From the NCBI GenBank assembly GCA_016783605.1, contig JADHWG010000014.1:1-32741 (forward strand): 32,741 nucleotides of DNA, read 5' to 3'. The DNA comes from Candidatus Omnitrophota bacterium (lineage in GTDB: Bacteria > Omnitrophota > Gorgyraeia > Tantalellales > Tantalellaceae). Both the position numbers and the translations under genes were made by a program. Positions within the stretch are counted from its first letter, which is position 1. Each line of letters begins with the position of its first letter. The notes under the pieces are model-generated. The model was not told where the DNA came from. It was given only the letters and a program-made list of their open reading frames with translations, and did no database searches. Positions 1 to 26,880 of this stretch are shown here, in pieces.

Positions 1-3000
1 AGTATATCCCGCTGAAACTTACCGTGCCTGAAGATACTTGCTCGGTCAGAACCTCGGAGGGTTGTAAAGCCGTAGCCGCGCCGGCGGTGGCGGACAACGT
101 AATTTGAGATGTTGAATCGCCGGTTATTATGTTGCCGTATTGGTCTTGAACCTCTACAGTCGGCTGAGGATTAAACGGCGCCGAAGCAATAGCGTCCATT
201 GCCCCTGTTGGAACCGTGAAGCCGAGTTTACTCGCCGAATCCGTAGTTACGGTTATGTCACCGGTCGCGTCATCGGTCGCTATCGCGTGGGCGGCGGTTA
301 TGGTTCCGACTCCGGTATTGTTTAATGCCGGTTCAAACGTAACGCTTGAAGCGGAAGTTGTAGATAGATCGCCCTCGGTAAGGGTTCCGGTTACGCCCCA
401 GGTTACTGTCGCGTTATTGAGGTACGCATCTCCCGAGGTGTAAGCAACGGCGTAAAGGGTTAAGGTATCATGATTGGCGATGAGAGAATCAGTTGTTATT
501 TCGCTTCCCTCGCCGCCCGCCGCGTCTCGTATAAGAATATGGCCGTCTCCTGGAAGGTTTACGTCAAAGGTATTAGAAACGTCGTCTTCCATTGTATTGC
601 CGCAAGAGTCCTTCGCGCCGGTTATGCTGATATGACACTCTCCGGCTACAGAAGACAGTAGTGTAGTAGTACCTTCCCAAAACGTAGGCTCGGCGTCCTG
701 ATAACCGTTGGTATAGCCCTCTCCGGTTTTAGCGACTATTGTAGCGGTGGTATACGGATCGCTGATGCCGTATTTTATCGTGGGGGCGGTTGCCGTGTCC
801 ATATCCTCGCTGAAGGTTATGGTAAAATCTGTTTCAGTTTCGGCGGGCACAGGGCTCACCGGATCTAAAACCACGCTTGAAACTGTCGGCAGTACGCTAT
901 CTAAGGTGGCGGTAATATCAAAGGCCGCGGTTTCACCGGCTAGGGTGAAGGTAATAACGAAAGTATCGGAGGTTTTGCTGGTATACATGGAGTATTTGTT
1001 CGTATTGGTGGCAGGAACCAGAGGGTCCGGCCATGTGCCGTAAGTTTCGGCATCTGACTTCCCTTGATCCGCAACACCTGTCGTATCGTAATAGATTTTA
1101 GTATTGGCATTATCCCCCCAAGCGGCAAGGACATATTCCGTACTGGCAGACAAACTCACGAGAGAGGAAAACTCACTTGTGTACCAACCAGAGGTTGACG
1201 CCGGAATCGACACCGCGTCTCCTGTTCCGTTATTTAAGCTAAGGTTGGAGTTATAAAGAGCGTATTTAGCCGCGTGAGCGGCACCCGCGTCATCGTTTCC
1301 CAGATAAGCGGTAATACTGCTTACGGTTTCTCCTGATGCGCCTTCCGTAAAAGCCGCGCCCTTGATCACGTTTTCCAAACTAATGGAACTCGCGCCTTGC
1401 GTATCATACCCGAACGTAGGGTCAACAATAACCGGATAAGCCGCGTTGTCCAGCCACTTCCGGTCGATGGTGATCGTAATAGTGCCACTCCCACGCTTCT
1501 GTCCCTCATCCTGAGAAACAGCCCCTTCGTCATCCTGAGCCGCAACCCCTTCGTCATCCTGAGTCGCAACCCCTTCGTCATCCTGAGGAGCAATCCCCCC
1601 GTCATCCTGAGGAGCAATCCCCCCGTCATCCTGAGGAGCTCTGCGACGAAGGACCCCACCCTTTTTCACCTTGCGGGTGGAATCCACTCCCACTTCACCA
1701 CTCACCACCGAATGCTCTATCTTCAAAACCCCCCAAACCCAATCCCCATTTGCGTCTATGATTTTCGGCCGATACACATGAAACGCCTTCCCCGCCTTGT
1801 AATTACCCCCCTGCTTGCTTTCGTGATAGACCGCGTAGGAACCAACAACCTCCTCGGGACGCGCCGCGCCCTGAGCTATTTCTTCTTTACTGAGGGGGCC
1901 TTGATAGTAAAACACCAGCCCCTCCGTTTCTATCGGCAGACTAACCACGTTGGAATCGGGAATCTCCTTAAAAACAACTTCAAACTCAACACCACCGCTT
2001 TCGTTGATGACAAACGTCGAATCAACTTCTTCCCGGCTCTTTTTATAAAAACTGCTCCCTATCTCCGGTGAATCCCAATCTATTTTGCCCGCGTTCCGAG
2101 TTACAGATTTTTTCTCCCGTTTTATCTTATTATCCGGAAATTCCACGCTCAGCGAACTTTCTTCTCCCCATCGCTTTATCTTCGCGTGAGGTCTAAACTC
2201 CATAGTCTCAAAGTCCCCAATTTCAGTTTCGTCTTTTCCGAACATAATTTTGTATCGCTTTTTAAGATTGCGTTTTTCTTCTTCTGTCGGAGTGAACTCA
2301 ATAACTACGGTTCCCGCGCCGCCTCTTGTCGCGCCAGAACCTCCGTTCGCGCTAATTACGCCGTCATAAGTCCGCACGGCTGTTTTGACATAAATCCGCC
2401 CGCCGCCGCCGGCACCGCCCGCGCCGTCAACGTATCCTAACCCGGATTCTTCCACTTCACTCCGTTCAGTGTCAGAATGACGAGAAAAACCGTCATCTCC
2501 CCCATCCGCCGTAATATTTCCCGACCCGTCCAAAACCCCCGTATCTATCAAAATGCTGCCGCCCGCGCCGCCGCCCGCGCCTGCCACGCCGTCCGCGCCG
2601 TCAACCGCGATATCCCCTATCACGGTGAGTTTCCCCGGAACAACAAATCTCACAGCGCCGCCACCCGCGCCGCCGGTCGCGCCGTCAACAACACCACCAC
2701 CACCAGACCCAAAATCAACAGGGTCAAGAGAAGACCCATAACGTATCCCGCCGGAACCGGCATTATTGTCTCCCGCGCCGCCCGCGCCGCCATACCCCGC
2801 GCCGCCCGCGCCCGCGTCTTGATTTCCCGGCTTGCCTCTACCGACACCTTCGCCCGCCGCGCCGCCCGCGCCGCCGGAGAAACCCTTCCCGCTCGCCGAA
2901 ATTAACGCGCCTTCCTCGACAACGAGATTGGTAGCGGCCACCGTCACAGCGACTCCCTGAACGGAAGAATCAATTGTAAGCGCCACGCCGGTTTGAATGG

Positions 3001-3223
3001 TGAGCGTCCCCGTAACTTCCATGTCCGAAGTCCACGTCGTGTCTTCCATAATAGTTACGTCGGTAGGACTGGCAAACCCAACTAAAACTTTGTCAGCCTG
3101 GAAGAATAACGAACACGTCACCAGAAACAAGGTCAGGACAAGCGTCCCGACAATGACACCCAGCGTCACTTTCCCTTGAAAGTCCGGCAGCCCAATTCTA
3201 ATTTTTTTATTATAGGTCTTCAT
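1..3223 (-). CDS. large exported glycine-rich surface/adhesin-like protein, C-terminus truncated by the window edge
   Basis: Reverse-strand frame read from ATG at 3223 (MKTYNKKIRIGLPDFQGKVTLGVIVGTLVLTLFLVTCSLFFQAD...) stays open to base 1. N-terminal hydrophobic segment, GGAGGAGG-rich stretch, then beta-sandwich-like repeats. Missing from the ORF track because it has no stop inside the window. Confidence 0.85.
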   Translation of the reverse strand, partial: MKTYNKKIRIGLPDFQGKVTLGVIVGTLVLTLFLVTCSLFFQADKVLVGFASPTDVTIMEDTTWTSDMEVTGTLTIQTGVALTIDSSVQGVAVTVAATNLVVEEGALISASGKGFSGGAGGAAGEGVGRGKPGNQDAGAGGAGYGGAGGAGDNNAGSGGIRYGSSLDPVDFGSGGGGVVDGATGGAGGGAVRFVVPGKLTVIGDIAVDGADGVAGAGGGAGGSILIDTGVLDGSGNITADGGDDGFSRHSDTERSEVEESGLGYVDGAGGAGGGGRIYVKTAVRTYDGVISANGGSGATRGGAGTVVIEFTPTEEEKRNLKKRYKIMFGKDETEIGDFETMEFRPHAKIKRWGEESSLSVEFPDNKIKREKKSVTRNAGKIDWDSPEIGSSFYKKSREEVDSTFVINESGGVEFEVVFKEIPDSNVVSLPIETEGLVFYYQGPLSKEEIAQGAARPEEVVGSYAVYHESKQGGNYKAGKAFHVYRPKIIDANGDWVWGVLKIEHSVVSGEVGVDSTRKVKKGGVLRRRAPQDDGGIAPQDDGGIAPQDDEGVATQDDEGVAAQDDEGAVSQDEGQKRGSGTITITIDRKWLDNAAYPVIVDPTFGYDTQGASSISLENVIKGAAFTEGASGETVSSITAYLGNDDAGAAHAAKYALYNSNLSLNNGTGDAVSIPASTSGWYTSEFSSLVSLSASTEYVLAAWGDNANTKIYYDTTGVADQGKSDAETYGTWPDPLVPATNTNKYSMYTSKTSDTFVITFTLAGETAAFDITATLDSVLPTVSSVVLDPVSPVPAETETDFTITFSEDMDTATAPTIKYGISDPYTTATIVAKTGEGYTNGYQDAEPTFWEGTTTLLSSVAGECHISITGAKDSCGNTMEDDVSNTFDVNLPGDGHILIRDAAGGEGSEITTDSLIANHDTLTLYAVAYTSGDAYLNNATVTWGVTGTLTEGDLSTTSASSVTFEPALNNTGVGTITAAHAIATDDATGDITVTTDSASKLGFTVPTGAMDAIASAPFNPQPTVEVQDQYGNIITGDSTSQITLSATAGAATALQPSEVLTEQVSSGTVSFSGIY
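1505..1680. repeat. 24-bp tandem expansion of the GTCATCCTGAG repeat inside the CDS
   Basis: About five consecutive 24-bp units, e.g. gtcatcctgaggagcaatcccccc at 1577-1600 and 1601-1624, then a standard repeat arm (gaggagctctgcgacgaaggacccc). Encodes APQDDGGI-like octapeptides on the minus strand. Confidence 0.9.
2441..2483. repeat. GTCATTCTGA-type repeat arm inside the CDS, in frame
   Basis: gattcttccacttcactccgttcagtgtcagaatgacgag, also found at about 5027-5062 and 7235-7271; translates in frame as RHSDTERSEVEES within the 1..3223 protein. Confidence 0.85.
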
Positions 3224-3635: not shown

Positions 3636-3674
3636 AAAAAAAAACGCCCATACAGTTTGCTTGGGCGTTTTTTT
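3636..3674 (-). terminator. intrinsic terminator of the riboswitch expression platform
   Basis: Minus strand aaaacgcccaagcaaactgtatgggcgtttttttt: GC-rich hairpin plus U tract directly 3' of the aptamer. Confidence 0.8.
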
Positions 3675-3679
3675 ATTTC

Positions 3680-3750
3680 CGGCAGCCTGACAATCCCGCG
3701 TTTCACAGGACTCATAGCTTTGCGCCCTCACATTACTGTAAGTTTGCCTT
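3680..3750 (-). ncRNA. GEMM-I / c-di-GMP-I riboswitch aptamer (copy 1)
   Basis: Minus strand GGCAAACTTACAGTAATGTGAGGGCGCAAAGCTATGAGTCCTG...CGGGATTGTCAGGCTGCC: GGCAAAC, GNRA-capped P2 (CTTACA-GTAA-TGTGAG), GCGCAAAGC core, closing GG(C/T)TGCC. Confidence 0.88.
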
Positions 3751-3787
3751 TTTCGTTTTATACAAAGAACATCGTAATCACCCTTTA

Positions 3788-3827
3788 AGTATACATTAAA
3801 ATGCCAAGCCTGGCAAGTGCCAGGCAC
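3788..3827 (-). promoter_or_regulatory. promoter plus palindromic operator-like module upstream of riboswitch copy 1
   Basis: Minus strand TTGCCA (3816-3811), 17-nt spacer, TATACT (3793-3788); overlapping palindrome GTGCCTGGCACTTGCCAGGC. Confidence 0.7.
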
Positions 3828-9280: not shown

Positions 9281-9296
9281 CGCACTCAAGCACACT

Positions 9297-10493: not shown

Positions 10494-10869
10494 TGCCGGT
10501 TACCTTTGTTTTATCATACGTCACGCCTTTATTTATTGATTTTTTCCAACCGCTAAGCTGTTTACTTACGTTTTCTATCAGCATGTTGAGAGAGATCATT
10601 CTCTTGATGCTTATTTGCCGTAAATCATGCAATAACCGTATAAGCAAGCGCACCGCTTCTGTATTCTCCATACACCGATCTATATGGATTTTTTTCTCTC
10701 GTCTCGAATTGACTTTATAGATTTGCAGTAACAATTCAAGAGTTTCATTTTTCAGTTTTTCTCCAAGAGTATATTTGTATTCGCGTGACAAACCGGTTGT
10801 CGTCTTACAAATTTCTATCAACAGATCATACGCCTTTTTAAAAACGGGTAAAGTGTTATACAATGCCAT
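10486..10869 (-). CDS. avd: DGR accessory variability determinant (Avd-like four-helix bundle protein)
   Basis: MALYNTLPVFKKAYDLLIEICKTTTGLSREYKYTLGEKLKNETLELLLQIYKVN...; short helical protein overlapping the RT start by 8 bp. Confidence 0.88.
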   Translation of the reverse strand: MALYNTLPVFKKAYDLLIEICKTTTGLSREYKYTLGEKLKNETLELLLQIYKVNSRREKKIHIDRCMENTEAVRLLIRLLHDLRQISIKRMISLNMLIENVSKQLSGWKKSINKGVTYDKTKVTGNG

Positions 10870-10889
10870 AATTTGCTATTTTACCGCCC

Positions 10890-11350
10890 TCTCGTCGTTC
10901 TGCACCCACCCTCCGTCATTCTGAGCCCGAAGGGCGAAGAACCCCACCCTTTTTCACCTTGCGGGTGGCCCCCCACTCCCACCTCGTCATTCTGAGGAGG
11001 TACGACGAAGAATCCCATTCGTTAAGAACAGATCCTTCACTCCGCTCAGAGCCTGCCCTGAGCTTGTCGAAGGGATGACGAGCGTGGAGCTGGATAACGA
11101 GCGTAGAGCAGAATGACGAACAAGAGCGCACAGGATGACGAGCGTAGAGCTGGATGCGAGCGTGGCGCGTCATTCCACCCCACTCATTTCCACTCCCACC
11201 GTCGGCATCCTCAGGAGCCCCCCTTTTTTTCGTCATTCTGAGGAGCTTCATTTTTTTCGTCATCCTGAGGAGCTTGCGACGAAGGACCCCATCCTTTTCC
11301 ACCTTGCACGTTGTCCCCCACTCCCTCATCCTTTTCCACCTTGCACGTTG
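10890..11350. repeat. GTCATCCTGAG repeat cluster between the DGR TR and avd
   Basis: Arms plus gagcttgtcgaagggatgacg variants; central ccttttccaccttgcacgtt segment. Confidence 0.88.
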
Positions 11351-11443
11351 CAACACGGGCACATGCAATGTGCCCCTACATCCCACATCCCCCGCGTGTT
11401 TCAACTCCACGGTGGTGAAAATTTTGGCAGTATTGTTTCATAG

Positions 11444-11624
11444 TCGCTGAGGCAACGCACACTAAAGCCGTTGGCCTTATTGTTGTTATTCACGTTGCTG
11501 TTCGTGCTGTTGAAGTTCAGTTTGTACCCGTTGGTAGTACTGTTCTGGGTGCTGCTCCAGTAGTTGCCGTTGACACCTCTGTTGTTCAGCGCACCATCGC
11601 TGTTGTCGAGATAGCCAGCAGCAT
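11444..11624 (-). other. DGR template repeat (TR)
   Basis: 181 bp aligned without gaps to 12435-12615. Minus-strand reading is Asn-codon rich (NNRGVNGNYWSSTQNSTTNGYKLNFNSTNSNVNNNNKANG). All 15 differences are at coding-strand A. Confidence 0.97.
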
Positions 11625-11746
11625 ACCAGCCAATAAGTTGCCACTTTACATGTGAATACAAGCAGCTAAGCATGTATTCATCTTTTTTTTGCTTTCGGAA
11701 ATCGATATTCATTCCTAAAGCGGGCAACCCGACTATAATCCGCGCT

Positions 11747-12364
11747 CTAACCGAAACCGATAGTCTCGGTTACTCCGGCGTTTCCCATCCCTGCCAAATC
11801 TTTTTGTAATCGCGTAACAAACTGCATAGTTTCTATAAGAGTATTGTTTGCAACTTGGTAAGTCCGCAGCTTTTGAATAATCTCAATTTCTTTTACATCT
11901 AAACGTTTTGCATGTTCCCTTTTTTCGTCATTCTGAGGAGCTCCCCCACTCGTCATCCTGAGCCCACTCCCCCTCGTCATCCTGAGCCCGAAGGGCGAAG
12001 GACCCCACCCATTTCCACCTTGCACATTCGCCCCCACTCCCCCCACCTGCTTTTGCCAGTTTTCGTAACTGCCGTTAGCGGTCATTCCCGATATGATAAC
12101 TTTTTTTTCACCTTCATCGCTGATGCCATAGCCCTTTTCTAATGCTTTTTTCTTCACTTTTGTCAAGCTTTGCTCGGGAAAACCGCAGTAGTAGACATAT
12201 TCATTCACCTTTTTTACCCACTTTTTGCGCACTTTGTAAGAAAAAAGAGACGTTACCATAAACATCGCGGAGCGATTATACGCCCGAAAAAACATCCCTT
12301 CTTTCAACAAATAAACGGCATTTTTATTCCTCAATTCCTGCTCTATTATTTCCCTTACGGTCAT
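11747..12364 (-). CDS. MutS-N-terminal-like DGR accessory protein with an in-frame palindromic repeat insertion
   Basis: MTVREIIEQELRNKNAVYLLKEGMFFRAYNRSAMFMVTSLFSYKVRKKWVKKVNEYVYYCGFPEQSL resembles the MutS mismatch-recognition domain; located between VR and TR. Start 12364 preferred over 12418. Confidence 0.7.
   Translation of the reverse strand: MTVREIIEQELRNKNAVYLLKEGMFFRAYNRSAMFMVTSLFSYKVRKKWVKKVNEYVYYCGFPEQSLTKVKKKALEKGYGISDEGEKKVIISGMTANGSYENWQKQVGGVGANVQGGNGWGPSPFGLRMTRGSGLRMTSGGAPQNDEKREHAKRLDVKEIEIIQKLRTYQVANNTLIETMQFVTRLQKDLAGMGNAGVTETIGFG
11928..12047. repeat. GTCATCCTGAG repeat inserted in frame in the MutS-like CDS
   Basis: cgtcattctgaggagctcc...cgaaggaccccacccatttccaccttgcacattcgccccc; translated GVGANVQGGNGWGPSPFGLRMTRGSGLRMTSGGAPQNDEK with no stop. 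Confidence 0.9.
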
Positions 12365-12396
12365 TAGCATTCCTCTCTTTTTCCAAAAAAAATCGA

Positions 12397-12409
12397 CCCG
12401 CTTCGCGGG
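12397..12409 (-). other. short hairpin downstream of the VR (possible DGR homing hairpin and/or terminator)
   Basis: CCCGC-GAA-GCGGG followed on the minus strand by TCGATTTTTTTT; begins 25 nt past the VR 3' boundary. Confidence 0.6.
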
Positions 12410-12430
12410 ACATCTCAAATAATCAAATTG

Positions 12431-13501
12431 TCAATCGCTGAGGCAACGCACACTAAAGCCGTTGGCCTTACTGCTGTTATACACGTTGCTGCTCGTGCTG
12501 GCGAAGTACAGTATGTACCCGTAGGTAGTACTGCTCTGGGTGCTGCTCCAGTAGTGGCCGTAGACACCTCTGCTGTACAGCGCACCATCGCTGTCGTCGA
12601 GATAGCCAGCAGCATGTAACACTAAATCAGAGCCGAATGCCCAACTCCAAGTGGTTCCGACATCGACATTAGTATATTCACCGCTGGTTGGCAGGCGCCA
12701 GCCCGCGCCAAGTAGTAGCGCGCAGGGATCAAGAGCTGGATTCCAATTAGAAGCATTACTACCTGAATCAGTATAACTTTCACTTTCGTTAATGGAAGTG
12801 ATAGTCCATGCCGGAGACGGCCCGACAGCGTATCCTTGTTTTCGGTTAAACTGCCAATACCAACCCGCGGAAGCGGCAGTAGCATCATCAACCGCGGTTG
12901 CCTGCTGGGTCGCGCCGAGGTTTCGGGTGATCCAGCACTTTTCAGCTCCCGAAATGGATGTGACTACGGTTCCGTACGTAATGTCTACCGTGACAGGCGA
13001 AATACCATCGCCGGCGGTGTGGCTAACAGTGATAGGGTCTCCGGGGGCCCACACATACTCGCCCGCCGTAAGCGTTACCGTCAAGGTCTGCTCTCCTTCG
13101 GCCGTGGTAGAGCTTGGCGCGGTAAATTGCAGATCAAACGTCTGTCCCGCCGCCGCGGTTAAACTTGCAAGTTCGATTCCACTGCCTACGTTGGTAATAG
13201 CGTCCGACCAACTGCCCGAGGCGTCGTGTTTTAGCACAAAAATGTCCGCCCCCGCACCGGCACCCGGACTCAAGGAGGCACCAGTCACCTTGATATAGAC
13301 TGTTGACGTCACATCACCCTCGTTGGTCGCGGTAAAGGTGTCACCTGTTGTCGTCCTCGCGAGACTCATCCCCACTGTCCCTATTGCCCACGGACCGCCG
13401 GTAATCGACACCGCCCGCCCCGCGTAAGCCGTGGCAGAGACTGCGAAAACAAAGACCAACCCCGTCAATCCCATTTTTATTACCCTATTGAACAGCTTCA
13501 T
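12431..13501 (-). CDS. DGR target: exported protein with C-terminal FISUMP-type (C-type-lectin-like) domain
   Basis: Signal peptide MKLFNRVIKMGLTGLVFVFAVSATAYA; C-terminal CWITRNLGATQQATAVDD...GAGWRLPTSGEY...YWSSTQ...GFSVRCLSD; the VR is its last about 60 codons. Confidence 0.93.
   Translation of the reverse strand: MKLFNRVIKMGLTGLVFVFAVSATAYAGRAVSITGGPWAIGTVGMSLARTTTGDTFTATNEGDVTSTVYIKVTGASLSPGAGAGADIFVLKHDASGSWSDAITNVGSGIELASLTAAAGQTFDLQFTAPSSTTAEGEQTLTVTLTAGEYVWAPGDPITVSHTAGDGISPVTVDITYGTVVTSISGAEKCWITRNLGATQQATAVDDATAASAGWYWQFNRKQGYAVGPSPAWTITSINESESYTDSGSNASNWNPALDPCALLLGAGWRLPTSGEYTNVDVGTTWSWAFGSDLVLHAAGYLDDSDGALYSRGVYGHYWSSTQSSTTYGYILYFASTSSNVYNSSKANGFSVRCLSD
12435..12615 (-). other. 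DGR variable repeat (VR)
   Basis: 181 bp, 15 differences from the TR, all at TR adenines (coding strand: 7 A>G, 6 A>T, 2 A>C). The 36 bp at the coding 3' end are identical to the TR (IMH-like). Confidence 0.97.
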
Positions 13502-13524
13502 GATAACACCCCCGCGTTAATTTT

Positions 13525-13840
13525 TCGTTAAGAACAGATCCTTCCACTTCACTCCGTTCAGTGTCAGGATGACGAGGTGAAAAAAATCGTCATCCTGAGG
13601 AGCGAAGCGACGAAGGACCCCACCCATTTCCACCTTGCACTTCCATCCCCACTCCCTCATTCCATTTCAATTCGCTAAGAACAGATCCTTCGCTACGCTC
13701 AGGATGACGAACGTGGGTGGCTCAGAATGACGAGGTGAAAACCTCGTCATCCTGAGCCCACACCCCTCGTCATCCTGAGCCCACACCCCTCGTCATCCTG
13801 AGCCCACACCCCTCGTCATCCTGAGCCCGGAGGGCGAAGG
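13525..13840. repeat. GTCATCCTGAG palindromic repeat cluster
   Basis: Arms, central segment, and a short tandem series cctcgtcatcctgagcccacacc. Confidence 0.9.
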
Positions 13841-15527: not shown

Positions 15528-18008
15528 TTATTCCACTATCAAAGACCCGCCTTTACCGGGGTCAAATCCTTCGCCGCCTTTAACGCATATCGTTCCTTTT
15601 ATTCCTCCACTCGCGGCTTTGAGATGAATTCTTCCGCCGCCTCCGCCACCTCCCGTTAGGCCGCCGTAACCGCCTTCGGCGGTTATCACGGCTTTATCGC
15701 TAAAAAACTCGTCAGCCGTTAAGTATACGCTTCCGCCCGCGCCGCCCGCGGATTCATATTCGGTTTCATTACCGAACATTTTTCTGTCTTCTCCGTTGGC
15801 GGTAAGGTATCCGTTAATTTCAAAATCGCCGCGCGCTTTAAGTGTGATGCTTCCGCCGCCGGCTCCGCCCGCGGCATACCATCCGCCACTTCCGCCGGAA
15901 CCCAGATCGCTCGGCGCTCTTTTCGCGCCGTATCTTTCCATGTCTATGTCCGCGTCTTCTTTTTGCGTCTTGGCACGGCCGCCTTTACCTCCGTAAGACC
16001 CGCCTAAAGCGCCCATATCGAGATATTTTCCGGCGCCTCGGCCTTTCGCGTCTGCACGGATGTTTCCGCCGGCGTATCCTTTTTCATCAGCCGTTATTAC
16101 GCCTTCCGGTTTTATCGTAATGTTCTCGGCGGAGAAATTTAGTACGTATGCCTTGACGTCTTCGTTTTCTCTGTGCGTCAATATGCCGCCTCTTTCCACC
16201 ATAAGATCTCCCACGATCGACTGCGGGTTATTGTTTGCCTGGATAAGTTCCCCGCCTTTACGAACGACTATGTCTCCTGAAGCGGGGTTTATGTTGTGAA
16301 TAAGAATGAGTTTGGACGTATGCTCGCCCGTGCCGTCACCGATTATGAGTTTTTTGAAACTGATGCCGCCGGAAGTTTTAATTGTTTCGTTGCCGGCGAT
16401 GGTTACAACCGCGGAAAGATCTTGATACGCTCTTTCTTCGGCGATAATTTCTTCCGCCGTCGCGGGAGCCTCTTCGCCTTCCGAGAGAGAGACCAGCCCT
16501 TCATACGGTTCAACCGTGAACGCGCCGTCCGACAAATCATATATTTTGCTTTCGTTCGCGTCGGAAATCTTGATCACGAGATCGTCCGCCTCTAAATCGC
16601 TTGGTATCGTCCACGCGTAAATTCCGCTGTTTTCTGTTTTTGTAATTTTTGTGAATGTTTTTAGACTGGATTTTTTTGCGTATTCAAGGGTTACCGGATA
16701 GAAAAAATCGTATTCCAGCGCGGACCACATAATGTCTTTCCTGGTTCCCGCCTGCCAAGTTTCGCCGCCATTGGGCACTATCATGGTGATAATCCCGGGG
16801 GCGTAATCCAGTTCCAAAAGTTCCAGTTCTGATTCCTGTATTCCGCGTTCAAATCTTACTTTCGCTTTAGGCTGTTTCCCCGTCTTGAAATCTTCGAGTG
16901 AAACGTAGTAATATGTGTCCGCGTCGCAGTCTTTTTTATACGTTAGTCCGTTATCCGCCGAAACGTCCACGGAAATTTCATCGCCTTCCCATGCCACGAC
17001 GAGTATACGTATATCAAACGCCTCCAATAGAGGCGAGGTTACGTATTGCCCGTTATCGTATCCGTCCAAAAGTACGACGTTTCCAAGCGCATTCAAACCT
17101 ACCTTCTCAAAAGACGGCGTTATCGCCTCTTCCTGTTTGGGCTCATCGCTTGTGTCGGGTTCGGGCACAACTTCTACAAATTCCTTAAGCCATCCGCCGT
17201 TTTCATCCTGTTCACTAAAAACATCTTCAACGCGCGAGGCGTCTTTCGCGTCCACATTTCCGTAATACATATAGATGCTGACCCCGGCGGCGGGTATCTC
17301 GGGCACTTTTACCCAGATCTTCGCGGTACGCGCCGGGCTCACGCCCGTCATCGTCTCACGATAATAGGCGAGTATCGTTTCCCCGTCCGCCGCGGTAAAC
17401 CGGATATCTTCCAGACCTTTCAGCGTATTGCCCAGACAATTGACGTCGTAGTCTTCCGCTTCGAGCGTCTCTCCGACCGCGATATCGACTTGATAGTTAT
17501 ACAGCGTCCGTGAGGAGCCGGTAATGTGAATTTTTTTTCTGTATTTGAGTCCCGAAAGCTGAGGTTCTCCGAATGTAGCGACAATACCGCTTGTATCCGC
17601 ATAGGAAATCTTAACCTCGCTCAAGGTGCTTCCCGTGCCAAGCTGTGCGCGCCACTTCAGGCGGTCGCCTTTCGTGAATCCTGCCTTGAGCGGCACACCG
17701 TTAATCACTTTGTAATAGTGACTTCCCCCGTCAACGCTTACTTCAAGCGTAACCTCGCCGGTAAACACCCAGTTGGCGGTTATCTCTTCTACGAGCCCGT
17801 CCGTTGGCACACTCTTATAAACGACATAGGTGGACCCTGAAATCGCGGGCAAAGAAAAGTCCCCGTTTCCGTCAGCTCGCCAAAAAATAGACGATGTATA
17901 CGTTTTTATCTCCGCCTCCGCCGAAATCGGCCACGCCTGAACAAAAGCGAAAACCAAGATTATCAGTCCCATTTTTATTTTTCCTCTGAGCGTCTTCATA
18001 ACTCTCAC
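15528..18008 (-). CDS. exported surface protein with DUF2341 domain and glycine-rich C-terminus
   Basis: Signal peptide; YRKKIHITGSSRTLYNYQVDIAV...ARTAKIWVKVPEIPAAGVSIYMYYGN (DUF2341-like); ITMIVPNGGETWQAGT; C-terminal GGYGGLTGGGGGGGRIHLKA. Confidence 0.85.
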   Translation of the reverse strand: MRVMKTLRGKIKMGLIILVFAFVQAWPISAEAEIKTYTSSIFWRADGNGDFSLPAISGSTYVVYKSVPTDGLVEEITANWVFTGEVTLEVSVDGGSHYYKVINGVPLKAGFTKGDRLKWRAQLGTGSTLSEVKISYADTSGIVATFGEPQLSGLKYRKKIHITGSSRTLYNYQVDIAVGETLEAEDYDVNCLGNTLKGLEDIRFTAADGETILAYYRETMTGVSPARTAKIWVKVPEIPAAGVSIYMYYGNVDAKDASRVEDVFSEQDENGGWLKEFVEVVPEPDTSDEPKQEEAITPSFEKVGLNALGNVVLLDGYDNGQYVTSPLLEAFDIRILVVAWEGDEISVDVSADNGLTYKKDCDADTYYYVSLEDFKTGKQPKAKVRFERGIQESELELLELDYAPGIITMIVPNGGETWQAGTRKDIMWSALEYDFFYPVTLEYAKKSSLKTFTKITKTENSGIYAWTIPSDLEADDLVIKISDANESKIYDLSDGAFTVEPYEGLVSLSEGEEAPATAEEIIAEERAYQDLSAVVTIAGNETIKTSGGISFKKLIIGDGTGEHTSKLILIHNINPASGDIVVRKGGELIQANNNPQSIVGDLMVERGGILTHRENEDVKAYVLNFSAENITIKPEGVITADEKGYAGGNIRADAKGRGAGKYLDMGALGGSYGGKGGRAKTQKEDADIDMERYGAKRAPSDLGSGGSGGWYAAGGAGGGSITLKARGDFEINGYLTANGEDRKMFGNETEYESAGGAGGSVYLTADEFFSDKAVITAEGGYGGLTGGGGGGGRIHLKAASGGIKGTICVKGGEGFDPGKGGSLIVE

Positions 18009-18030: not shown

Positions 18031-18960
18031 TCAGTTTTCCGATTTTTCCACTTCACGTCTCTTTCTCTCTCGATCCAATCTTTTTGTCGTAGCGCGATAG
18101 TATGACACTAAATCCGCGCGATACTTCGCTTCCAGATCCTGTTTAAGCGCGTCTTCTCTCTCCTGAAACATATCTTCCACTTTCCCTTCCACTTTTTGAC
18201 TCGCTGCGAAATAGTAGTATGTGACCGCGCTTAAAGCGATGATCACTGCCGCGCCCGTCACAATAAAGACCTTCTGAAACCGGCTTCGCAGAATCATCCT
18301 TTTTCCCGTCAGGTTTTCCGCCTTATTCTCTTTTTCGAATTCATCTTTAATCCGCCGGACAAATTCCGCCGACCCGATAATCCCGCTTCTCTGCACTTTT
18401 TTATCCAACGCTTTTAGATCCGAAGGCTCGGCTTCATCTACGAATCTTTTGTACAACCTCACCTGTTCGCCGGGAATAACGGAAAACTTCTCCAACACTT
18501 CCTTCGCGTCCCCTTTCGCCTCCAAATAATGCGAATAACTCGACCACCGGTAGTCTTCGGCTTTGGAGCCGGCGTTTAATTTCTCGGGAACAAGATGAAT
18601 ATAGCGCGTCAATTCCGTCAAGTAGGTATCTTTTTCAACAACTGCCGCCTTAAACCGTCCTTTAAAAAGATGTCCGCTTCTTTCGTAGCGGCGGTTGTAA
18701 TATTTTGTGTATGTCGAATTCATCGCGTGCATAATTTCCGAAATCGTCGTTTCCGGCACAAGTTCGAGCAAAAGATGGATGAATTCCGGCATAAGCACGT
18801 ATGAAAAAAGTTTGAAGCCGTATTTTTCCTTGTATCTGGAGAGTAAGTCCACGTACGCGTCTTTATCCGCGTCGGCGCGAAAAAGCAAATTCACCTGACT
18901 ACCGTACGCGGTAACCAAGTACACCCCCTGCTCAATGTGTATTCTCGGAAGTCTTGCCAT
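18031..18960 (-). CDS. RAYT/Y1-transposase-like protein with degenerate HUH motif and C-terminal TM helix plus coiled coil
   Basis: MARLPRIHIEQGVYLVTAYGSQ...YGFKLFSYVLMPEFIHLLLEL...SGHLFKGRFKAAVVEKDTYLTELTRYIHL...YRWSSY; then FIVTGAAVIIALSAVTYYYFAAS TM and charged helix. 22 bp upstream of the DUF2341 gene. Confidence 0.88.
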   Translation of the reverse strand: MARLPRIHIEQGVYLVTAYGSQVNLLFRADADKDAYVDLLSRYKEKYGFKLFSYVLMPEFIHLLLELVPETTISEIMHAMNSTYTKYYNRRYERSGHLFKGRFKAAVVEKDTYLTELTRYIHLVPEKLNAGSKAEDYRWSSYSHYLEAKGDAKEVLEKFSVIPGEQVRLYKRFVDEAEPSDLKALDKKVQRSGIIGSAEFVRRIKDEFEKENKAENLTGKRMILRSRFQKVFIVTGAAVIIALSAVTYYYFAASQKVEGKVEDMFQEREDALKQDLEAKYRADLVSYYRATTKRLDRERKRREVEKSEN

Positions 18961-19030
18961 CTCTACATCTCCTTCTTATCAATCCCGCGGGACCACATCT
19001 CATGTGCCCAATCAAAAGTCACACACCAAC

Positions 19031-19056
19031 CCGTAGGGGCACATTGCATGTGCCCC
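19031..19056. repeat. CGTAGGGGCA palindromic repeat in the leader of the RAYT-like gene
   Basis: ccgtaggggcacattgcatgtgcccc. Confidence 0.8.
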
Positions 19057-19058
19057 AC

Positions 19059-19095
19059 AAAAAAAAACGCCCGGTAACTTACACGGGCGTTTTTA
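19059..19095 (-). terminator. intrinsic terminator of the riboswitch platform
   Basis: Minus strand aaaaacgcccgtgtaagttaccgggcgttttttttt. Confidence 0.8.
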
Positions 19096-19103
19096 AATTC
19101 TCT

Positions 19104-19175
19104 CGGCAACCAGACAATCCCGAATTCCCCCGGGACTCACGGCTTTGCGCCCTTACATCACTGCAAGTTTGCCAT
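19104..19175 (-). ncRNA. GEMM-I / c-di-GMP-I riboswitch aptamer (copy 2)
   Basis: Minus strand GGCAAACTTGCAGTGATGTAAGGGCGCAAAGCCGTGAGTCCCGGGGGAATTCGGGATTGTCTGGTTGCCG; GNRA loop GTGA. Confidence 0.9.
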
Positions 19176-19219
19176 TTTCTTTTTATACATGTCAAAGGTC
19201 TCTTTCCTGCCACTCCTAA

Positions 19220-19259
19220 AGTATACACCATATGGGGAAGCCTGGCAAGTGCCAGGCAC
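19220..19259 (-). promoter_or_regulatory. promoter plus palindromic operator-like module
   Basis: Minus strand TTGCCA-N17-TATACT with overlapping GTGCCTGGCACTTGCCAGGC. Confidence 0.7.
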
Positions 19260-19569
19260 TCGCCGTTTGAATCTTTCCGATTTTCAGCACCCTCATTAGT
19301 AAATACACCACCGTGGATTTTGCACTCCTTGTGCAACTCCCGTTCCCAAATTTCACCATGAACCAAATTGCTTCCTGCTACCTGTCGAATTTATGCAACT
19401 CCTTTAAATATAAAGAGTGCCAGTCATACCCCACAGCTAATTTTTCTCAATTTTTACAGTTCCCTTTACCCCTTTTCGCCCGACAATAACCTTCAACTTC
19501 TCTACATCTATTCCCCCAAAAACATCCCCACCGTGACACTCCACAACTTTATTTACCTTTTTTCTTTCT

Positions 19570-19878
19570 AATCCCCACGTCCCCTCTTACCCATACGGCC
19601 ACATTGCCCGCACCCCAATTCAATCTCCACATATCCAAAATCCTACGGCCACATCACATGCGCCCTCCCAATTCAATCCCCACGTACCCATTCACCCGTA
19701 CGACCACATTGCATGTGCCCGACTTCAATCCCCACGTACCCATTCACCCGTACGACCACATTGCATGTGCCCCCAATTCAATCTCCACGTATCCCCTTTA
19801 CCCGTAGGGGCACATTGCATGTGCCCAAATTCAATATCCACGTATCCCCTTACCCGTAGGGGCACATTGCATGTGCCC
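19570..19878. repeat. about six tandem copies of a 52-bp CGTAGGGGCA-type unit, progressively degenerate toward the left
   Basis: Unit aattcaatctccacgtatcccctttacccgtaggggcacattgcatgtgccc; leftmost copies carry cgtacgaccac or atacggccac in place of cgtaggggcac. Confidence 0.85.
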
Positions 19879-19944
19879 TAATAACACCTATCGATATAAA
19901 ATTCAAAAAATTTTCCTCTGCCAACGTAATCGTAAGACATCAAG

Positions 19945-19985
19945 AGTATACACAACCATTCCACCCCTGACAAGTGCCAGGCACC
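19945..19985 (-). promoter_or_regulatory. distal copy of the promoter/operator module
   Basis: Minus strand TTGTCA-N17-TATACT with gtgcctggcac upstream. Confidence 0.6.
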
Positions 19986-20227
19986 TTTTTCCATAACTCC
20001 TCTATTCCCCCCTTCACAACACACTACCACCATATACACCAACACACCAACCCGTAGGGGCACATTGCATGTGCCCACGAGGTTACCCGCAACCTTGTAA
20101 TAACGGGCACATGCAATATGCCCCTACGAGATAAAATTCAAGGTTGCCATTCCCAAATTTTCAAATATCAAACCCTTCTCTCCCACTTCCTTCGTCCTCA
20201 ATGAATAATATGCGCTCACATCTCTCG

Positions 20228-20314
20228 AAATCCCCCTAACCCCCTTTGCTAAAGGGGGAACTGAAACCCCTCCGCTCTTCCCCCCCTTAGAAAAAGGGGG
20301 CCGGGGGGATTTTA
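20228..20314. repeat. inverted repeat AAATCCCCC...GGGGGGATTT
   Basis: aaatccccctaaccccctttgctaaaggggg ... cccccttagaaaaagggggccggggggatttt. Confidence 0.8.
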
Positions 20315-20319
20315 ACCAC

Positions 20320-21243
20320 CTATTCAACCTCCCGTCTCCTCCGTTCCCGATCCAGCCTCTTCGTCGTCGCGCGATAATACGACACCAGATCCGCCCGGTA
20401 TTTCGTTTCCAAATCTTGTTTAAGCGCCGCCTCTCTCTCCTGAAACATGTCTTCCACTTTGTCTTCCACTTTTCGGCTCGCCGTGTAGTAGTAATATGTA
20501 ACCGCGCTTAAAGCGACGATCACGGCTGTGCCGGTTATAATAAAGACCTTCTGGAACCGGCTTCTAAGAACCAACCTTTTCTTCGTCACCTTTTCCGTCC
20601 GGTTCTCTTTCTCAAATTCGCCCCTAATTTGCTCAATGAACTCCGCCGACCCGATGATCCCGCTTTTCTGCACCATTTTGTCCAGCGCTTTCAGATCCGA
20701 ATCTTTGGCTTCTTCAACAAACCTTTTGTACAACCTCACCTGTTCTTCAGGAATAACGGAAAACTTCTCCAACACTTCTTTCGCGTTCCCTTTCGCCTCC
20801 AGATAATGCGAATAACTCGACCACGCGTAATCTTCGGCTTTGAATCCCGGATTTCCGATACCGGGAGCAAGATGAATGTAACGCGTCAAATCCGCCAAAT
20901 ATGTGTCTTTCTCAACAACCGCCGCCTTGAACCTCCCCTTGAAAAGATGACCGCTTCTCTTGTAGCGGCCGTTGTAATATTTCGTATAAGTCGAATTGAC
21001 AGCGTGCATAACTTCCGAGATCGTAGTTTCAGCCATAAGTTCGAGCAGAAGATGTATGAGAGACGGCATAAGCACGTATGAAAAAAGCTTAAACCCGTAT
21101 CGCTCTTTGTATTTGGTCAACAGATCCACATAAGCATCCCGGTCAGGATCGCCGCGAAAAAGCACATCCTCCTGCCCGCCGCGCGTGGTGACCATATACA
21201 ACCCCTGCTCAACATGTATTCTCGGAAGTCTCGGCATCTCCAA
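20320..21243 (-). CDS. paralogous RAYT/Y1-transposase-like protein with degenerate HUH and C-terminal TM plus coiled coil
   Basis: Near-collinear with 18031-18960; YVLMPSLIHLLLEL; FIITGTAVIVALSAVTYYYYTAS TM. Confidence 0.88.
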   Translation of the reverse strand: MEMPRLPRIHVEQGLYMVTTRGGQEDVLFRGDPDRDAYVDLLTKYKERYGFKLFSYVLMPSLIHLLLELMAETTISEVMHAVNSTYTKYYNGRYKRSGHLFKGRFKAAVVEKDTYLADLTRYIHLAPGIGNPGFKAEDYAWSSYSHYLEAKGNAKEVLEKFSVIPEEQVRLYKRFVEEAKDSDLKALDKMVQKSGIIGSAEFIEQIRGEFEKENRTEKVTKKRLVLRSRFQKVFIITGTAVIVALSAVTYYYYTASRKVEDKVEDMFQEREAALKQDLETKYRADLVSYYRATTKRLDRERRRREVE

Positions 21244-21324: not shown

Positions 21325-21362
21325 AAAAAAAAACGCCCATGCAAGTTGCACGAGCGTTCTTA
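21325..21362 (-). terminator. intrinsic terminator of the riboswitch platform
   Basis: Minus strand aagaacgctcgtgcaacttgcatgggcgttttttttt. Confidence 0.78.
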
Positions 21363-21369
21363 TATTCTC

Positions 21370-21441
21370 TCGGCAACCAGACAATCCCGATTTTCCCGGG
21401 ACTCACGGCTTTGCGCCCTTACATCGCTGTAAGTTTGCCAT
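21370..21441 (-). ncRNA. GEMM-I / c-di-GMP-I riboswitch aptamer (copy 3)
   Basis: Minus strand GGCAAACTTACAGCGATGTAAGGGCGCAAAGCCGTGAGTCCCGGGAAAATCGGGATTGTCTGGTTGCCG; GNRA loop GCGA with perfect 6-bp stem. Confidence 0.9.
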
Positions 21442-21485
21442 TTTCGTTTTGTGTATGTCAAAGTACGTTTTTCTACTACCCCTAA

Positions 21486-21526
21486 AGTATACATCATATA
21501 GGGAAGCATGGCAAGTGCCTGGCACC
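21486..21526 (-). promoter_or_regulatory. promoter plus palindromic operator-like module
   Basis: Minus strand TTGCCA-N17-TATACT with ggtgccaggcac overlapping. Confidence 0.7.
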
Positions 21527-21890
21527 TGCCGTCCGTTTTTCCCGGTTTTTCAAGCATTGAACCAACAATAGCATCACCGGGAATTTCACACCGAAAATGT
21601 AATTCCCGTTCCAACGATTTCCCATGAACCAAATTACCCACTGCTACCTGTCGAATTTATGTAACTCCTTTAAGCATAAAGAGTGCCAGGCACGTCCCAG
21701 AGCTGATCCCAACCAATTTCCCCTGTTTTCTCTGCCCATTTTTGCCTGACAATTACATACAATTCCCACCCATTCATCCATCAAAGAACCGCCAAAAAAG
21801 TCACTTCACAACTTTATCTACCTTTTTTATCTTTAATGTCCGTAGTGCCACAATCCGGACAACAAATTCGGCGTTAATTTGAAATACGTA

Positions 21891-22037: not shown

Positions 22038-22080
22038 AGTATACCCAACCACATCAAGCCTGGCAAGTGCCAGGCACTTT
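22038..22080 (-). promoter_or_regulatory. distal copy of the promoter/operator module
   Basis: Minus strand GTGCCTGGCACTTGCCAGGC with TTGCCA-N17-TATACT. Confidence 0.6.
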
Positions 22081-22311: not shown

Positions 22312-22364
22312 TTTTTGCAAGGACTTTTTGTATAAATTTTACACTTTTTGGCACGACTTTTATG
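22312..22364. repeat. direct repeat A flanking the DUF4143 ATPase gene
   Basis: 53 bp, 52/53 identical to 23736-23788 (tttttgcaaggactttttgtataaat[t/c]ttacactttttggcacgacttttatg). Confidence 0.95.
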
Positions 22365-23715
22365 GGCTGGAGGAGACATCAGACTCATTTTTCATAAAAT
22401 CTCCGACTAAATACAACGGATACCGATGAACCTTGTTAATGGGATCGATGAAAAGATTATTCGCGCTAAAAATCGTTCTGTATTTTGACTTATATTTTCG
22501 AGCAAAAACCTTTATGCTCTTTGCCTGGGTTACCCCCCCCGATTTTATTTCTATCGGCAAAATCTCTCCATTTATTTCTCTTAAGAATTCTACCTCAGCC
22601 GATCCTTCTTTCCAGCAATACAGCTCCTTTCCGCTTGAACAAAGAAATTCTTGAGCGGCAAAATTTTCCGCGAAGTAACCTTTGTAAGAACCGTATCCAT
22701 AGTCCATAATAGATTTTGGAGGTAAACCACTCAAAGCTCCCAATAGACCGACATCAAAAACATATAGCTTGAAACTGTTTTCCGTAGTATGCGCGGAAAA
22801 AGGAAGTAGTCCGCTATTGACCATCCGCACTTTTATAACAAGACCGGCGGAAACCAGCCAATCAATGCTCCCGGCTAATTTTGAATACCTTTGAATTCCG
22901 GGGATAACCCCTTTAAACTTAAACTTGCCCGCGGAACCGTCTTGCTCCTTAGCTAATTGCGCGGGAATGTTCTGCCATAATCTTTCAACATGCATCGCGT
23001 TTTGTTTACCGGAATGTTTTGCTATGTCAGCGATATACGCCAATAATAAATTATCCTGTTTTTCTCTCGTTTTTTCTAGAGCAATAAATACATCATCCTT
23101 GTATTCTTTAAACGTGCTAACAATTTCCGGAAGGCCTCCTGTTACAAAATATATTTTTAATTGTTCCCAAAGGCGAATATGAACGATCTGGGGAATTATC
23201 TCGGTTTTCTTGCGATCTTGGAGAAATTCAAATGATTTTATCTCACCGATCCCTTCCAAAAACTCCTCAAATGACAAGGGAAACATATTTAAAAATTCAA
23301 CTTTCCCGACAGGAAAAGATTCATCGGATAACTGGATCCCCAGCAACGAACCGGCCGCGCAAATGGCTAGTTTCGGCAATTCTTCTTGAAAATATTTTAA
23401 ACTGGTTAAAGCTCTTGGAATATTTTGAATTTCGTCAAAAATAATAAGATCGTTTTTTATATCGATAGCGGTGTTGAGATAAAAGCTTAAATCACGCAGT
23501 ATGTTTTGAGGAATAAGGTCTTCAGCGAAAATATCCACTAATTGCTTATGTTTTTCAAAATTCAAATAATGCACTTGTGAAAAACATTCTTTTCCGAATT
23601 TTTGGAGAATATATGTTTTTCCAACCTGACGCGCCCCCTTTAGAATAAGGGGCTTTCGATCTTTTTTATTTTTCCATTTTGTTAGTTTATTCCAAATATT
23701 TCTTTTCATAATCAA
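22360..23715 (-). CDS. AAA ATPase with DUF4143 domain
   Basis: WNKLTKWKNKKDRKPLILKGARQVGKTYILQKFG (Walker A), DLIIFDEIQNIPRALTSLKYF (Walker B), C-terminal EVEFLREINGEILPIEIKSG. Confidence 0.9.
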   Translation of the reverse strand: MIMKRNIWNKLTKWKNKKDRKPLILKGARQVGKTYILQKFGKECFSQVHYLNFEKHKQLVDIFAEDLIPQNILRDLSFYLNTAIDIKNDLIIFDEIQNIPRALTSLKYFQEELPKLAICAAGSLLGIQLSDESFPVGKVEFLNMFPLSFEEFLEGIGEIKSFEFLQDRKKTEIIPQIVHIRLWEQLKIYFVTGGLPEIVSTFKEYKDDVFIALEKTREKQDNLLLAYIADIAKHSGKQNAMHVERLWQNIPAQLAKEQDGSAGKFKFKGVIPGIQRYSKLAGSIDWLVSAGLVIKVRMVNSGLLPFSAHTTENSFKLYVFDVGLLGALSGLPPKSIMDYGYGSYKGYFAENFAAQEFLCSSGKELYCWKEGSAEVEFLREINGEILPIEIKSGGVTQAKSIKVFARKYKSKYRTIFSANNLFIDPINKVHRYPLYLVGDFMKNESDVSSSP

Positions 23716-25716: not shown

Positions 25717-26880
25717 TCATGCTTTTACTCCAAATACTCCCTTCATACCACCCAAAATCTCATCAAATGGCACGACATCAACTTGCTTGTGAATCGAATA
25801 GCGACGACTCCCGGGATAAATCACGGCGATGCGTTCCAGATTCAAATATTCAAGTGCCGTTCGAATAGATGTCGTCATTGTCGGGGCATCCTGGCGTTTT
25901 ATTTCTACGCCATATATCCGTCCGCCTTTTAATAATATGAGATCAATTTCTGCTCCTTGATGTGTCGCCCAATAGTAAACATCTTGCGGTTCTACCCAGC
26001 GAATGATTTCCTCTATAACGAATCCTTCCCACGATGCGCCACATACAGGATAACGGGGAAGCTCTTGTTCCGAATTAATTCCAATCAACGCGTGCAAAAG
26101 TCCAGTATCGCGAATATAGATTTTTGGCGATTTCACCTGACGCTTTTTGATGTTAGCATACCACGGCTGAAGCTGGCGAATCATAAATAGTCCCGTCAAA
26201 ATATCTAAATATTTACGAATTGTGGGATGAGTTAGTCCAAGAGATGAAGCAATGGGCGAAGCATTCCATATTCTCCCGTGATTATGAGCTAACATGATCC
26301 AAAATTTATGAAGCGTCACAACCGACACATCAAGCCCCTGCGCTTGACGGAGATCTCGTTCTAGAAATGTTCGAATGAAATTAACACGCCATGCTAAGCT
26401 ATCCTCATCGTTCTTGGCGAGAAACGACAGCGGAAACCCTCCTCTGTTCCAAAGACGCGTTTGTTTCTTTTTCCCCACCTCGGACAACCCAAACCCCTCC
26501 ATTTCGATCAATTCCAGTCGTCCGGCTAACGATTCTGAAGATTGTCTTAATAAATCCTGCGAAGCACTTCCTAAAATCAAAAATTTGGCAGGCAACGGCA
26601 CGCGATCCAACAATACGCGAAAAACCGGAAAAACATCCGGGCGGCGCTGAACCTCGTCAATCACAACAAGTCCCTTCAAATGCTCAAGAGCCGTTTTGGG
26701 AGCTTCAAATTCGATTAGCGTTGACGGATCTTCAAGATCAAAATAATTAGGCGAACGGATATCGACAAACTGCCGCGCCAAGGTAGTTTTACCGCACTGC
26801 CGCGCCCCCAATAAAGCCACAGCCTTGCTTCGATTAAGAGCTTTCTCAATACCCTTTTTATAATAAGCACGTTCAATCAT
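25717..26880 (-). CDS. AAA ATPase with DUF4143 domain
   Basis: KAVALLGARQCGKTTLARQF, LVVIDEVQRRPDVFPVFRVLLDR, C-terminal GAEIDLILLKGGRIYGVEIKRQ. Confidence 0.9.
   Translation of the reverse strand: MIERAYYKKGIEKALNRSKAVALLGARQCGKTTLARQFVDIRSPNYFDLEDPSTLIEFEAPKTALEHLKGLVVIDEVQRRPDVFPVFRVLLDRVPLPAKFLILGSASQDLLRQSSESLAGRLELIEMEGFGLSEVGKKKQTRLWNRGGFPLSFLAKNDEDSLAWRVNFIRTFLERDLRQAQGLDVSVVTLHKFWIMLAHNHGRIWNASPIASSLGLTHPTIRKYLDILTGLFMIRQLQPWYANIKKRQVKSPKIYIRDTGLLHALIGINSEQELPRYPVCGASWEGFVIEEIIRWVEPQDVYYWATHQGAEIDLILLKGGRIYGVEIKRQDAPTMTTSIRTALEYLNLERIAVIYPGSRRYSIHKQVDVVPFDEILGGMKGVFGVKA

Follow-up and report, generated by a model that had tools for sequence, protein, structure and literature searches.

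What role do two transposase-like proteins play in a bacterium when each is fused to a membrane helix and encoded behind a cyclic di-GMP (c-di-GMP) riboswitch? This question is raised by a stretch of 32,741 nucleotides of a Candidatus Omnitrophota genome (contig JADHWG010000014.1, in the following called the window), in which two minus-strand genes encode proteins related to the RAYTs. The RAYTs are regarded as domesticated transposases. We find that the two proteins belong to a clade of Omnitrophota RAYTs with a transmembrane (TM) helix, here called TM-RAYTs, most members of which have lost catalytic residues, with selection maintaining the protein, and whose genes share a riboswitch, an operon and a palindromic element at a fixed place. 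We consider it moderately likely that the TM-RAYT is a domesticated, membrane-tethered regulator with a topology like that of ToxR and CadC, which binds the palindrome and regulates, probably by repression, the adhesin operon to which its own gene belongs.

That both open reading frames encode RAYT-like proteins, as a preliminary description of the locus had proposed, agrees with the Pfam search, in which Y1_Tnp is the only family above the cut-off (E = 3e-14 for copy 1 and 2.4e-11 for copy 2), and with a match to the fold of 4er8. This structure, the E. coli TnpArep, is the sole PDB relative retrieved by profile search. The AlphaFold model of copy 1 has a Y1 core with a pLDDT of about 95, and its best Foldseek match is again 4er8, a RAYT with a repetitive extragenic palindromic (REP) hairpin (E 5.7e-8, TM-score 0.74). 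With the NCBIfam family REP_Tyr_transpos the copies reach 63 and 51 bits, which is under the 80-bit cut-off of this family. The Y1/RAYT domain of copy 1 (residues 1-145) is followed by a linker (146-228), and in both copies a single hydrophobic helix (231-249) leads to a long charged coil, just as described before. The linker was also thought to be DNA-binding, which is not supported, as its match to RHH_1 is not significant (E = 0.15). It contains an ILGS..F extension that non-TM RAYTs have too. We read the residue positions off an alignment with intact RAYTs. Where these have P-N-H-U-H the window copies have PEFIH and PSLIH, and the first HUH histidine is indeed gone in both (F60 and L60). 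The second histidine (H62) and the catalytic tyrosine (Y120, in YIHLxP) are retained, and the asparagine metal ligand of the class 2 context Y---NP is lost (V/A124).

The two genes lie in a segment of about 1.5 kb that is present twice (start to start about 2.27 kb) with 79% identity across the 3' coding part and 70-81% in the leaders. Comparison of the copies gives an overall ratio of nonsynonymous to synonymous substitution rates (dN/dS) of 0.117, with values of 0.139 for the Y1 domain and 0.049 for the TM helix and coil (dS 0.98). Both window proteins are therefore kept by selection. Together with the phylum-wide operon described below this value rules out ordinary decaying transposase copies. 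PADLOC gave no match, and a reading as anti-phage defence was rejected.

How widespread are such proteins? A profile of 13 TM-fused relatives was run over 386 Omnitrophota genomes and revealed 57 TM-RAYTs in 56 of them, nearly always one per genome with two in the genome of the window. The profile scores fall into two classes whose boundary coincides exactly with the presence of the helix: complete proteins with at least 260 bits all have a TM helix, and only one, whereas non-TM RAYTs score 218 bits or less. In a tree that combines 60 TM-RAYTs with 53 non-TM RAYTs drawn from many phyla, the TM-RAYTs lie on one side of a single branch (SH-aLRT 97). A TM-RAYT-like open reading frame without a strong TM peak (L175, MBAA01000064.1) comes from a contig assigned to the bin of a Lokiarchaeota genome; it nests among Omnitrophota sequences, and a binning error or a transfer is likely.

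The non-TM RAYTs all have the two histidines, the tyrosine and the asparagine (53/53), whereas among the 60 TM-RAYTs both HUH histidines are present in 33, the tyrosine in 40, HUH plus tyrosine in 25 and all four residues in 24. Parsimony requires at least six changes for HUH and at least twelve for the tyrosine. The clade of the window copies has five members, and the first histidine is absent in all of them, replaced by F or L; elsewhere Q, R, E, S or N take its place, and many other TM-RAYTs lack either histidine or the tyrosine by various substitutions. A sequencing error or a private oddity as the source of the HUH loss is ruled out by these varied substitutions and by the losses of the second histidine and the tyrosine elsewhere. 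For three close HUH-dead relatives (L109-L111, with E-S-H and a change from Tyr to Phe) dN/dS is 0.06-0.12. From the repeated residue loss and the low dN/dS we conclude that catalysis has disappeared several times although selection preserves the protein. The motif GHLFxxRF is kept in nearly all TM-RAYTs while the catalytic residues go, and TM-RAYTs with an intact HUH have the same genomic context as the dead ones. Thus, the term catalytically dead, used in the preliminary description, suits the window clade and the majority of members but not the family, of which 25 keep HUH and tyrosine, and the loss of a HUH histidine is not its defining trait. These 25 also supply the sequence part of a combination, a TM fusion with an intact HUH that transposes, which had been named as speaking against domestication. 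The idea of a domesticated protein rather than a transposase is supported: the TM-RAYTs form one clade, are nearly always single-copy, share one operon and riboswitch across the phylum, are under purifying selection and, in the window copies, lack two catalytic residues. We infer a regulatory function from this context.

The presence of a c-di-GMP riboswitch upstream of each window copy, also claimed before, is confirmed by Rfam, and each aptamer is followed by a strong hairpin and T9. Above the Rfam cut-off, c-di-GMP-I riboswitches in the orientation of the gene lie no more than 1 kb upstream of 44 of the 57 TM-RAYTs (within 400 nt in 43), with a distance from aptamer match to gene of mostly 90-180 nt. 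Five more TM-RAYTs (G305, L020, L061, L064 and L113) have matches below the cut-off in the right place. The number of c-di-GMP-I riboswitches per genome ranges from 1 to 20, and a scan of nine non-TM RAYT loci turned up none. In the genome of the window (G000) two further c-di-GMP-I riboswitches were seen, upstream of a secreted glycoside-hydrolase-like protein (G000:C5:10847-10946, L001) and at an apolipoprotein N-acyltransferase-like open reading frame (G000:C34:24584-24665, L004). Our search of the literature, mostly open-access, yielded no paper on Omnitrophota c-di-GMP riboswitches and none on membrane RAYTs.

Downstream on the same strand 48 TM-RAYT loci encode a large secreted protein, often with a small secreted protein in between (30 loci). 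The large proteins carry Kre9/KNH Ig-like, Kelch and DUF2341 domains and, where the contig allows the full length to be seen, comprise 4,116 to 10,674 amino acids. By these lengths they belong with, or resemble, the giant open reading frames of Omnitrophota, which encode very large secreted proteins with proposed roles in adhesion, predation or symbiosis (PMC10066038). The surface protein encoded directly after copy 1 is the small window counterpart of these giant proteins. Upstream of the TM-RAYTs, the genes appear by sequence to be of a type II secretion or pilus-like kind (secretin, ATPase, GspC-like, TM coiled-coil).

Most TM-RAYTs end in a domain that we name WETMQ, which is modelled as a beta barrel of eight strands (pLDDT 93), whereas the window copies have a coil as their only presumed extracytoplasmic part. 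No Pfam family was found for WETMQ, and the PDB gave no match at E <= 0.001, with weak lipocalin- and fHbp-barrel-like hits. The domain is also present in secreted proteins encoded just upstream of the TM-RAYT at 22 loci. Hits from hidden Markov models that we had suspected to be small upstream RAYTs are in fact secreted proteins that have the C-terminal WETMQ domain in common. For the coil architecture, that of the window included, paralogues of the coil occur in neighboring TM-coil proteins of other loci.

Which site could the RAYT domain recognize? Most TM-RAYT leaders contain, 3' of the riboswitch terminator, the polar palindrome AAAGTGCCAGGCAC. Its main consensus follows the terminator in 47 of the 57 leaders, compared with a mean of 1.6 and a maximum of 5 in 200 leader shuffles, and the clade variant AAAGTACCACGTAC raises the count to 50. 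Measured from where the T-run ends, the G of the element is 14 nt away in 29 leaders and 13-16 nt away in 48 of the 50. Conservation extends to the AAA foot but not to the 3' TTT; the element is always on the coding strand and, at loci other than the window, one-sided relative to the TM-RAYT gene. It is kept in 28 of the 34 TM-RAYTs with a broken HUH or tyrosine and in 22 of the 23 intact ones. In the broken ones it therefore does not serve catalysis.

The 11-mer GTGCCWGGCAC occurs six times in the 1.65-Mb genome of the window, and all six copies lie within these 33 kb, which rules out that the palindrome is a dispersed REP. Twenty other TM-RAYT genomes hold 25 exact copies, 21 of them in the TM-RAYT leader, and the surroundings of 64 non-TM RAYTs (617 kb) contain none. 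Variants of the element follow the TM-RAYT clades, with GTACCACGTAC in L109-L111 and GTRCCACGC in L065, L066, L102 and L017. Both arms of the leader element have changed together in L109-L111, which looks as if protein and site co-evolved. Pairs of exact palindromes were also noticed in a genome without a detected TM-RAYT (G066:C17:2019-2043 and 9570-9601), possibly belonging to a diverged member or to another user of the site. The palindrome had been named in the preliminary description and turns out to be weightier than thought there, being a TM-RAYT-specific leader or promoter element; this association suggests that the TM-RAYT binds it.

Within the window, all but one of the six palindromes lie immediately next to the -35 hexamer of near-identical TTGYCA-N17-TATACT promoters. 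The window has five such promoters, all of which abut a palindrome, with 0.00 expected and none ever seen in shuffles. The same layout is found at the sister L014. One palindrome and promoter belong to a third riboswitch unit, which is a probable further target of the window TM-RAYTs.

We suggest the following mechanism. The RAYT domain would be cytoplasmic and recognize (AAA)GTGCC(A/T)GGCAC as a DNA hairpin or as an operator, and the TM helix would lead to an extracytoplasmic coil in the window clade or to a small beta-barrel domain in most other members. The TM-RAYT gene heads the operon for the very large secreted surface protein, and the c-di-GMP-I riboswitch with its terminator would decide on read-through. 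Once bound to the element the TM-RAYT would reduce transcription of the operon that its gene heads. In the window clade it would occupy the site abutting the -35 and block initiation, whereas at the other loci it would sit 13-16 bp past the U-tract, hold the RNA polymerase and favor termination. Judged from its footprint, the front of the polymerase would meet a site at this distance while the active center is on the U-tract. The extracytoplasmic domain could report on the state of secretion, a sensor role that is plausible given its paralogy to secreted or secretion proteins encoded alongside. Known TnpAREP proteins are strand-specific and recognize single-stranded DNA folded into a hairpin that has a foot at its 5' side (PMC8266576), and the polar foot-plus-hairpin shape of the element would fit this mode of binding. 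Only tentatively do we go further and propose a two-input gate, in which c-di-GMP sets the terminator and the secretion-informed RAYT acts as a roadblock past it (at the -35 in the window clade); the TM-RAYTs might then be a new class of transmembrane one-component regulators derived from a HUH transposase.

Several points weigh against a membrane-bound repressor. Seven of the 57 leaders lack the element after the terminator, and 30 genomes free of TM-RAYTs contain 20 scattered exact palindromes. The charge bias favors a cytoplasmic N-terminus (positive-inside) in only 33 of 55 TM-RAYTs, and the WETMQ domain is absent from the window's own genome. The characterized TnpAREPs bind folded single strands (PMC8266576) and are not known to bind double-stranded operators. 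Catalysis may persist in some members because 25 of the 60 keep HUH and tyrosine. Finally, the pairing between the 3' strand of the aptamer's P1 and the 5' arm of the terminator has a mean of 4.15 nt, versus 3.92 nt with permuted partners (4/1000) and 3.56 nt with shuffled arms; this hints weakly at a switch that is OFF with c-di-GMP, and we do not rely on it.

Could the element act as RNA instead? The RAYT domain might bind it as an RNA hairpin in the read-through leader and so recruit the mRNA of the giant protein to the membrane or the secretion apparatus, where the very long product would be both synthesized and exported. Such a tether would suit an element that is polar, always on the coding strand and, at most loci, within the read-through transcript of an operon coding for secreted proteins of 4-11 thousand amino acids. 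We nevertheless consider it unlikely, as the element of the window and of L014 is upstream of or abuts the -35 and thus lies outside the transcript, and RNA binding by RAYTs is not reported in the literature compared. The very position next to the -35 hexamer of TTGYCA-N17-TATACT could point to an activator that recruits polymerase like ToxR and CadC and exerts positive feedback on the adhesin operon; CadC and other ToxR-like proteins are activators (PMC5430869). However, at most loci the promoter, the riboswitch and the terminator all precede the element, where an activator would hardly be expected, and the window promoters already match -35 and -10 strongly, so that this reading appears to us marginally less probable still.

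We are equally doubtful that the palindrome is the operator of another regulator and the TM-RAYT a secretion accessory or scaffold with a vestigial nucleic-acid role. The extracytoplasmic parts, paralogous to secreted neighbors or to those of the secretion apparatus, would be explained, but hardly an element that is almost confined to TM-RAYT leaders and varies with the TM-RAYT clades, nor a GHLFxxRF motif kept in nearly all members despite the catalytic loss. Very unlikely, in our view, is a still-active single-strand nuclease or transposase, that is an unusual REPtron with the palindromes as substrates, even though HUH and tyrosine are found in 25 of 60 TM-RAYTs and the REPs of a RAYT often flank its gene (PMC6006769). 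The element is local, with six copies in 1.65 Mb against 301 matches of a true REP family with a GTAG foot, and one-sided at a fixed distance from the terminator. Moreover, TM-RAYTs are nearly always single-copy with one operon in common, and the window copies are without one histidine and the asparagine.

With the membrane-bound regulator as the preferred reading, the TM-RAYTs can be compared with known systems. They share with class 2 of the RAYT/TnpAREP proteins (Quentin et al. 2018, PMC6006769) the Y1/HUH fold with 4er8 as best match, the Y---NP context of intact members, the ILGS..F extension after the core, a single-copy gene outside an insertion sequence context, and a long C-terminal extension as in subclass 2.1. 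They differ in that a TM helix and an extracytoplasmic domain stand where class 2 has a helix-turn-helix or DnaA-like C-terminus, in that they mostly lack the full set of catalytic residues, and in their link to riboswitch and operon; the word membrane appears nowhere in Quentin et al. (2018). Unlike the flanking and genome-dispersed REPs of a REPtron, the palindrome is local and one-sided. Since the window copies lack an intact HUH and the asparagine, and since their palindrome does not behave as a dispersed REP, it would be inapt to call them transposases. The predicted layout of a cytoplasmic DNA-binding domain, one TM helix and an extracytoplasmic sensor-like domain is that of ToxR and CadC (PMC5430869, PMC6320335). 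Their DNA-binding domain is a winged helix of the OmpR type, however, whereas that of the TM-RAYT is the RAYT; in the absence of a winged helix TM-RAYTs are not members of the ToxR family. A further difference is that the TM-RAYT gene is under a c-di-GMP riboswitch and heads an operon that it probably controls. The TldR proteins, TnpB-like regulators (PMC13418256), are transposon-derived transcription factors controlling a surface structure, as is proposed here for the TM-RAYTs, but they are unrelated, RNA-guided TnpB relatives and not membrane-bound. For the giant open reading frames of Omnitrophota the regulation is not described (PMC10066038), and here the TM-RAYTs are a candidate regulator and c-di-GMP a candidate signal.

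The coordinates of the features are collected in Table 1. The start of copy 2 is most likely the ATG at 21237 rather than the TTG at 21243. Apart from the TM-RAYT element, the genome contains a canonical REP family with a GTAG foot, GTAGGGGCAC(GGCATGCC or ATTGCAT)GTGCCC, with 301 genome matches versus 0 for the control, and the GTAG REPs around the window TM-RAYT genes belong to this genome-wide family. On contig C14, two GTAG REP copies lie about 0.6 kb upstream of an intact RAYT (SNHVH), with which they are likely to form a REPtron. The window also carries a diversity-generating retroelement, in which 15 of 15 differences between template and variable repeat are at template adenines, and two neighboring AAA_14/DUF4143 ATPase genes. 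Dispersed repeats of the CGTCATTCTGAG type are many, at 8859-13700 and window-wide, some of them within open reading frames including the tail of that at 2441-3223.

Table 1. Features of the window (positions 1 to 32,741; - denotes the minus strand)
Feature	Position	Strand	Basis or remark
TM-RAYT copy 1, 309 aa	18031..18960	-	Pfam, PDB profile, AlphaFold/Foldseek
Degenerate HUH motif PEFIH, copy 1, first His to F60	18775..18789	-	alignment
TM helix copy 1, residues 231-249	18214..18270	-	Kyte-Doolittle mean 2.05
Intrinsic terminator (expression platform), copy 1	19059..19091	-	leader sequence
c-di-GMP-I aptamer of copy 1	19102..19183	-	Rfam RF01051, 60.2 bits
Promoter TTGCCA-N17-TATACT, copy 1 proximal	19220..19248	-	
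Palindrome GTGCCTGGCAC at -35 of copy 1 proximal promoter	19249..19259	-	
Promoter TTGTCA-N17-TATACT, copy 1 distal	19945..19973	-	
Palindrome GTGCCTGGCAC, copy 1 distal promoter	19974..19984	-	
TM-RAYT copy 2, 305 aa, 80% identity to copy 1	20320..21237	-	dN/dS 0.117
Degenerate HUH motif PSLIH, copy 2, first His to L60	21052..21066	-	alignment
TM helix copy 2, residues 231-249	20491..20547	-	
Intrinsic terminator (expression platform), copy 2	21325..21358	-	leader sequence
c-di-GMP-I aptamer of copy 2	21369..21449	-	Rfam RF01051, 63.5 bits
Promoter TTGCCA-N17-TATACT, copy 2 proximal	21486..21514	-	
Palindrome GTGCCAGGCAC at -35 of copy 2 proximal promoter	21515..21525	-	
Palindrome GTGCCTGGCAC upstream of copy 2 proximal promoter	21683..21693	-	no TATACT promoter; context TGGCAC-N5-ATGCT
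Promoter TTGCCA-N17-TATACT, copy 2 distal	22038..22066	-	
Palindrome GTGCCTGGCAC, copy 2 distal promoter	22067..22077	-	
Secreted Gly-rich surface protein, 826 aa, DUF2341 + Kre9/KNH Ig-like	15531..18008	-	directly after copy 1
Gly-rich secreted protein downstream of third riboswitch	2441..3223	-	tail is translated dispersed-repeat sequence
Terminator of third riboswitch	~3636-3668	-	hairpin + T-run after aptamer
Third c-di-GMP-I riboswitch	3677..3757	-	RF03167 63.7 bits; RF01051 66.5
Promoter TTGCCA-N17-TATACT, third unit	3788..3816	-	
Palindrome GTGCCTGGCAC at promoter of third riboswitch	3817..3827	-	
Diversity-generating retroelement	9297-13501	-	
Retroelement reverse transcriptase (RVT_1)	9297-10493	-	
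Retroelement bAvd-like	10486-10869	-	
Retroelement template repeat	11444-11624	-	
Retroelement variable repeat, target gene 3' end	12435-12615	-	
Retroelement target gene (Lcl_C / Fib_succ_major)	12431-13501	-	
AAA_14/DUF4143 ATPase gene	22360-23715	-	
AAA_14/DUF4143 ATPase gene	25717-26880	-	
GTAG REP copies	19033, 19804, 19856, 20054, 21888, 21942, 22203, 23881, 11357		

In summary, the role of the TM-RAYTs can be read from their context, that is a fixed riboswitch, an operon and a cis-element, while catalysis decays under strong selection. They provide an example, accessible to testing, of how a transposase may have turned into a regulator at the membrane, and their operons connect c-di-GMP with the giant Omnitrophota surface proteins, the proposed mediators of attachment to other cells.

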